Positions 34,385 through 34,417 of a stretch of DNA of 64,000 bases are shown one piece after another; the stretch's first letter is position 1; each line of letters opens with the position of its first letter. The position numbers and the translations under genes are program-made. Under the pieces are notes generated by a model, which saw only the letters and a list, made by a program, of their open reading frames with translations, was not told the DNA's origin and ran no database searches. The stretch is from Erinaceus europaeus (lineage: Eukaryota > Chordata > Mammalia > Eulipotyphla > Erinaceidae). The stretch is taken from positions 93,728,054 through 93,792,053 of the forward strand of contig NC_080170.1 of assembly GCF_950295315.1 (NCBI RefSeq), given 5' to 3'.

Positions 34385-34417
34385 GCATTGGTGGTTCAGT
34401 GATAGGATTCTCGCCTG
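34385..34417 (+). repeat. tRNA-Gly 5'-half-like segment in U3
   Basis: 33 nt opening GCATTGGTGGTTCAGTG match the 5' half of tRNA-Gly (GCC/CCC), as remembered, at 31 positions. The mismatches are G to A at the 18th base and A to G at the 22nd. Identity ends at the edge of the anticodon. The 3' half and B-box are absent, so it is not a tRNA gene. Confidence 0.85.

Follow-up and report, generated by a model that had tools for sequence, protein, structure and literature searches.

A tRNA-Gly sequence took the place of part of the native U3 in a betaretrovirus-like ERV family, probably through a two-ended template switch

All three LTRs of an endogenous retrovirus (ERV) in the window, the whole 64,000-nt stretch of DNA that was analysed, carry in U3 a 33-nt segment resembling the 5' part of tRNA-Gly. 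This raises the question of how a piece of host tRNA came to lie in a retroviral promoter. A sequence-only reading had noticed the match and explained it as an angiogenin-type 5' tRNA half, captured by a template switch during reverse transcription and spread with the family. BLASTN with a tRNA-Gly-GCC query confirmed the match at 31/33 positions (93.9%, tRNA positions 1-33, E 9.1e-10) in every LTR. ARAGORN folds the query as tRNA-Gly(gcc), and comparison with the host genome bore it out: two tRNA-Gly-GCC places are exact, one more has 1 mismatch, and two CCC forms have 2 mismatches each. The segment itself, GCATTGGTGGTTCAGTG, is found exactly at 34385, 41016 and 47648, and the window has no fourth place at ≤3 mismatches. 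In the shuffle control, the mean was 0.15 places and none of 100 shuffles attained three. Neither ARAGORN nor Rfam (the latter also at a lax threshold across 30000-52000) called a tRNA in the window, as expected because the segment is a fragment. The features are listed in Table 1.

Table 1. Features of the tandem provirus and of the tRNA-Gly-like segment, in window coordinates
Feature	Position	Strand	Remarks
LTR1	34256..34715	+	460 bp, TG..CA; bounds from three-way identity
tRNA-Gly-like segment (33 nt), U3 of LTR1	34385..34417	+	31/33 to tRNA-Gly-GCC
GCATTGGT, homology at the 5' junction	34385..34392	+	tRNA nt 1-8, native U3 too
23-nt patch, unambiguous tRNA-Gly (nt 9-32)	34393..34415	+	now carries G19A, A23G
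TGT (from TGC), homology at the 3' junction	34416..34418	+	tRNA nt 33-35, native U3 too
LTR TATA box	34511..34517	+	from sequence; ~94 nt downstream of the tRNA-Gly-like segment
Primer binding site, lysine tRNA	34718..34735	+	sequence TGGCGCCCGAACAGGGAC
LTR2 of the tandem LTR-int-LTR-int-LTR array	40887..41346	+	460 bp
Identical segment in LTR2	41016..41048	+	exact copy, 31/33 to tRNA-Gly-GCC
LTR3	47519..47978	+	460 bp
Identical segment in LTR3	47648..47680	+	exact copy, 31/33 to tRNA-Gly-GCC

The LTRs belong to an array (34256-47978) with two near-identical internal regions and LTR spacings of 6631 and 6632. It is bordered by a 6-bp duplication, CAGGTA, at 34250-34255 and, past LTR3, at 47979-47984; a 6-bp target-site duplication together with TG..CA LTRs is the pattern of a class II ERV. 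LTR1 and LTR2 differ at one position, and LTR3 differs from them at 9 and 8, respectively. The tandem provirus is recent and probably a product of unequal recombination. In the first internal region, five frames were scanned and four of them match retroviral domains (Gag_p24; RVP; RVT_1 and RVT_thumb; rve, IN_DBD_C and Integrase_Zn). The best PDB matches of the integrase are 7usf and 3jca, which we take to be MMTV integrase, and the element is therefore a class II, betaretrovirus-like ERV. Similarity to a hedgehog SINE points to an erinaceid as host. Its primer binding site at 34718 is presumably of the tRNA-Lys3 type. The family has been active recently, as K2P between paired LTRs is 0.002-0.025 in 8 of 9 pairs (L106/L107 left out). 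Both internal copies also contain a 63-bp unit repeated about three times in the gag region (35139-35328 and 41770-41959) and a sub-threshold Rfam match to RSV_RNA (37109-37396 and 43740-44027; 60.7 bits, gathering 105, E 3.3e-15), which probably reflects pol homology and not a stability element.

The segment has spread with the family. At ≤3 mismatches, the window segment has 10,955 places in the genome and the unmutated tRNA sequence with LTR flank has 7,655; the two sets overlap, and the places are pattern matches, not a count of confirmed LTRs. The reversed window pattern has none. The 100 places listed of the 7,655 are all exact, and in these older places the 23-nt patch is identical to the tRNA. 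Twenty older copies that were read, picked as exact, match the host tRNA-Gly-GCC at 34/34 positions, and the median K2P between their flanks is 0.14 on the right and 0.26 on the left. Identity to the tRNA was therefore formerly higher; the two mismatches in the window, G19A and A23G, are later subfamily changes, and C35T, just past the segment, is later too. The origin in tRNA-Gly, the location in U3 and the spread with the family that had been claimed are supported by copies genome-wide. No LTR-type segment was found in the viral-contig and genome-contig collections searched.

Searches unbiased for the segment were conducted by using LTR flanks joined without the segment as query. With the flanks of L038, 40 matches were scored: 38 contain the full-length segment, one (L149, the same copy as L052) contains part of it and one (L144) is native. 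Eighteen of the 38 were judged by match length only (33 nt above the query, one 32), whereas about 39 nt would be expected for a native copy, and the segment of L150 carries 4 extra nt. The flanks of L138 also gave 40 scored matches, of which the L138 source and 14 others proved patched on reading and 20 were judged patched from their length alone (31-34 nt above the query, where a patched copy has 34 and a native one would have 40). The rest were two with the 3' part of the segment only, two of the native type (L167 and L168) and L174, whose left side is unrelated. Among L165-L174, five have the segment complete or nearly so, and the length-ambiguous L192-L200 were patched in 9 of 9 cases. 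The unrelated sequence of L174 meets the right flank of its U3 core at TCCGCC, so that the break falls on the old boundary of the patch.

Several other arrangements were seen among the copies. In L015, L038, L049, L051 and others, the patched U3 block is joined to at least two R-U5 regions and 5' U3 ends, which suggests recombination between LTR lineages. A 38-nt LTR start, inverted, adjoins the LTR copy at L004. The old U3 of L138, L143, L139 and L186 contains a tandem repeat of the form ATTTACATAA..CCACT..TAACTAAGCACC...GCATTGGT or similar, in which either the tRNA patch or the native form closes the second unit. The U3-flank tree (117 rows, 122 columns) lacked the resolution to be of use.

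The sister LTRs that lack the segment reveal the state of U3 without it. The segment-less right junction pattern has 4,606 places genome-wide, and the reversed-pattern control has none. Twenty native copies were read, 17 from the junction pattern plus L144, L167 and L168; the pattern that found the 17 itself contained TGC, and thus only the other three are free of this bias. None of these three was selected for TTTTTGC, and all three contain it, followed by TCCGCC or TCCACC. The native layout, which varies between copies, is ...CACCACCCTGCCTGCAGG-GCATTGGT-TTAATCCCCACTGGTTCATGATGTCTTTT-TGC-TCCGCC, and the patched layout is ...CACCACCCTCCCTCCAGG-GCATTGGT-GGTTCAGTGGTAGAATTCTCGCC-TGC-TCCGCC. Admitting one-base variants at most, the left motif is kept in 18 of the 20 native copies (GCATTGG exact in 13; GCATTGGT exact in 12 and with a one-base variant in 6), and L167 and L168 are without it through internal deletions. 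The native middle measures 29 nt in 15 of these 18 and 27, 28 or 30 nt in the other three. One copy, L186, has a left context 89-95% identical, gaps set aside, to 10 old patched copies (10 of 20 compared, over 55-79 aligned positions), followed by GCATTGGT, 29 native nt and TGCTCCG. L186 is a near-ideal empty allele.

Comparison of the two layouts shows that the event was a replacement, in which about 29 native nt of U3 gave way to 23 nt of tRNA (nt 9-32). The replaced tract is bounded by 8 nt and 3 nt that the LTR and the tRNA have in common. The match thus begins with 8 bases and ends with 3 that are native as well, which leaves tRNA nt 9-32 as the only part of unambiguous tRNA origin. As far as the letters tell, the 23-nt patch does not discriminate between GCC and CCC as donor, and the 3' homology is longer with GCC. 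Exact empty-site patterns had been searched on the premise of a simple insertion. One search (gap 0-28) gave 16 places, each with part of the segment, and another gave 4 places without real LTR similarity; these patterns failed because the event was a replacement.

Which form came first was judged from the upstream U3 repeat unit, in which GCATTGGTTTGATCCC resembles the native GCATTGGTTTAATCCC. A GCATTGGTTTGATCCC-like sequence is present in some form in 11 of the 20 patched old copies, and in 6 it is exactly GCATTGGTTTGAT. This paralogous repeat supports the native form as the likely ancestor. A back-conversion of the native form from the upstream repeat seems unlikely because, in the copies printed, the repeat is without the rest of the native middle.

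We consider a two-ended template switch by reverse transcriptase to be the best explanation, with a probability of about 75%; this agrees with the mechanism proposed from the sequence alone. Reverse transcription on the RNA of an ancestral betaretrovirus-like ERV would have reached the TGC just upstream of TCCGCCCCC, and the enzyme would have switched to tRNA-Gly, whose anticodon loop has the same TGC, and copied it toward the tRNA 5' end. The cDNA end would then have re-annealed through GCATTGGT, in which tRNA nt 1-8 equal native U3, so that the 29 native nt between the jump points were skipped and 23 tRNA nt took over. The patched U3 then spread to about 10^4 places, gaining G19A, A23G and C35T toward the young subfamily of the window. 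A jump at TGC and a return at GCATTGGT would account for the replacement, for both limits and for the lack of a target-site duplication. The copies themselves show the tRNA origin, the replacement, the homology at both junctions and the spread; we infer the RNA nature of the donor and the order of the jumps. A precedent for half-length tRNAs in such products is provided by tRNA/LINE-1 chimaeras (PMC13174262). Several points weigh against this explanation: TGC is just 3 nt, a variant GCATTGGT occurs in 6 of the 18 motif-bearing copies, and the polarity is read from a paralogous repeat. The native middle also includes TGGTTCA, colinear with the tRNA, which allows a two-step history; no hybrid returning at this internal TGGTTCA was found at ≤3 mismatches.

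Capture of a whole 33-nt angiogenin-type 5' tRNA half and its insertion in U3 would fit a match that spans tRNA nt 1 to 34/35, and half-length tRNAs are known in L1 chimaeras (PMC13174262). The match does literally run from tRNA base 1 to the anticodon, but neither end is diagnostic: it begins at nt 1 with GCATTGGT, which is also present in native LTRs, and it ends in the anticodon loop with TGC (nt 33-35), which is also native. Since both limits are common to LTR and tRNA, neither identifies a tRNA half. With both ends found in segment-less sisters and about 29 nt lost, the idea of an insertion is largely refuted, and capture of a half with its own ends is unlikely, although a tRNA half may have served as the donor in a two-ended switch. 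Slightly less likely again is a DNA-level gene conversion from a tRNA-Gly gene to a genomic LTR that later became a master copy. A donor identical to the patch is present in the genome, and gene conversion also gives a replacement tract bounded by homology, so it could have produced the same junctions as the template switch. However, the shared stretches, 8 and 3 nt long, are very short by the standards of mammalian gene conversion, whereas retroviral reverse transcriptase switches at such lengths.

An L1-mediated tailless retropseudogene of tRNA-Gly in an LTR copy would recall the elements of that name, which are truncated at the 3' side in loops and lack poly(A) (PMC5322556). No clean target-site duplication accompanies the segment (the best is 12/16 with a 3-nt offset, matched by 108 of 1000 shuffles), the site is C-rich and not TT/AAAA-like, and the native allele, with about 29 nt of its sequence replaced, contradicts such an insertion, making it very improbable. 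Mammals are rich in tRNA-derived SINEs, so a decayed tRNA-Gly SINE, or a full tRNA gene minus its 3' part, may also be thought of. Yet the 20 old copies, picked as exact, are perfect to nt 35 and then continue in native U3, the sister LTRs read contain no tRNA body, and no LTR among the loci read extends further into the 3' half of the tRNA. We regard this origin as the least probable of all, with hardly any weight.

The sequence-only reading had also suggested roles for the segment, but no sign of a function was found. The segment is indeed unchanged in LTR3, which has 9 differences from LTR1, but this is uninformative since only about 0.65 changes are expected in 33 nt (9 changes over 460 bp, scaled). 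Among 26 close copies compared to LTR1, differences number 5/858 in the segment, 15/3332 in left U3, 9/2418 in right U3 and 185/5330 in the part between the TATA box and the end of the LTR. The segment has thus changed less than R-U5 but no less than the U3 beside it. Pairwise comparison of 12 further copies, excluding L151 and L161 with their differing left flank, gave 4.0% for the segment (2.2% minus CpG) versus 1.3% for the left flank. The patch thus varies as much as or more than adjoining U3, which gives no support to selection on it. The proposed partial A-box did not hold up either, as G19A breaks the consensus. LTR1 has no A-box consensus on the plus strand, and no B-box follows the window segment at ≤2 mismatches within 500 nt on that strand, so the features of a tRNA gene or pol III promoter are missing there. 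Partnership of viral RNA with 5' tRNA-Gly fragments by pairing can be set aside because the two have the same sense and are copies, not complements.

In the copies that now exist, the patch probably forms a passive part of the promoter. Patched and native forms are both found in thousands of places, and therefore an advantage of the patch is not indicated. It seems improbable that the patch, once gained by a homology-guided jump at both ends, favoured its lineage through tRNA-like RNA and aided the rise to about 10^4 copies. Every genomic transcript would carry such an RNA close to its 3' end, where it might act in packaging or dimerisation via the GAATTC palindrome that the older form has, or might interfere in the germ line with the pathways of tRNA-Gly-GCC fragments.

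Retroviral reverse transcriptase jumps to co-packaged host RNA in forced-copy, homology-assisted events that lead to patchy gain of host sequence. Compared with such switching, the two-ended jump favoured here would have had a tRNA other than the primer tRNA as donor, and the patch lies in U3, where one event can fix both LTRs. The nearest published analogue in the literature surfaced is the tRNA/LINE-1 chimaeras (PMC13174262), in which reverse transcriptase likewise links a tRNA of approximately half length to a retroelement. Each of these 21 chimaeras is a single L1 insertion, the tRNA is mostly antisense, and target-site duplications measure 9-19 bp in the eight cases checked by their authors; in contrast, the patch in the window is sense, internal to the LTR, replaces native sequence and has about 10^4 places. 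Tailless retropseudogenes share the tRNA derivation, an end in a single-stranded loop and the lack of poly(A), but they are insertions with target-site duplications at TT/AAAA-like sites (PMC5322556), whereas here there is a replacement with no clean duplication. The control of mouse MERVL by tRF-GG, a 5' tRNA-Gly-GCC fragment, similarly ties the same tRNA sequence to ERV biology (PMC7549657); there the small RNA acts in trans, whereas here the sequence sits inside the LTR. Among the titles and abstract openings of the open-licence literature surfaced, none reported a tRNA-Gly segment in an LTR.

A tRNA match that is perfect from nt 1 to the anticodon does not by itself point to a tRNA half, since short homology can set the ends. 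This is a caution for reports that infer tRNA-half substrates from breakpoints: junction homology should be checked first. In this family, the forms before and after the capture of a host RNA coexist in thousands of places in one genome and, because both survive, the junctions are directly readable. The family also provides a natural experiment for studying template switches that reach a retroviral promoter.
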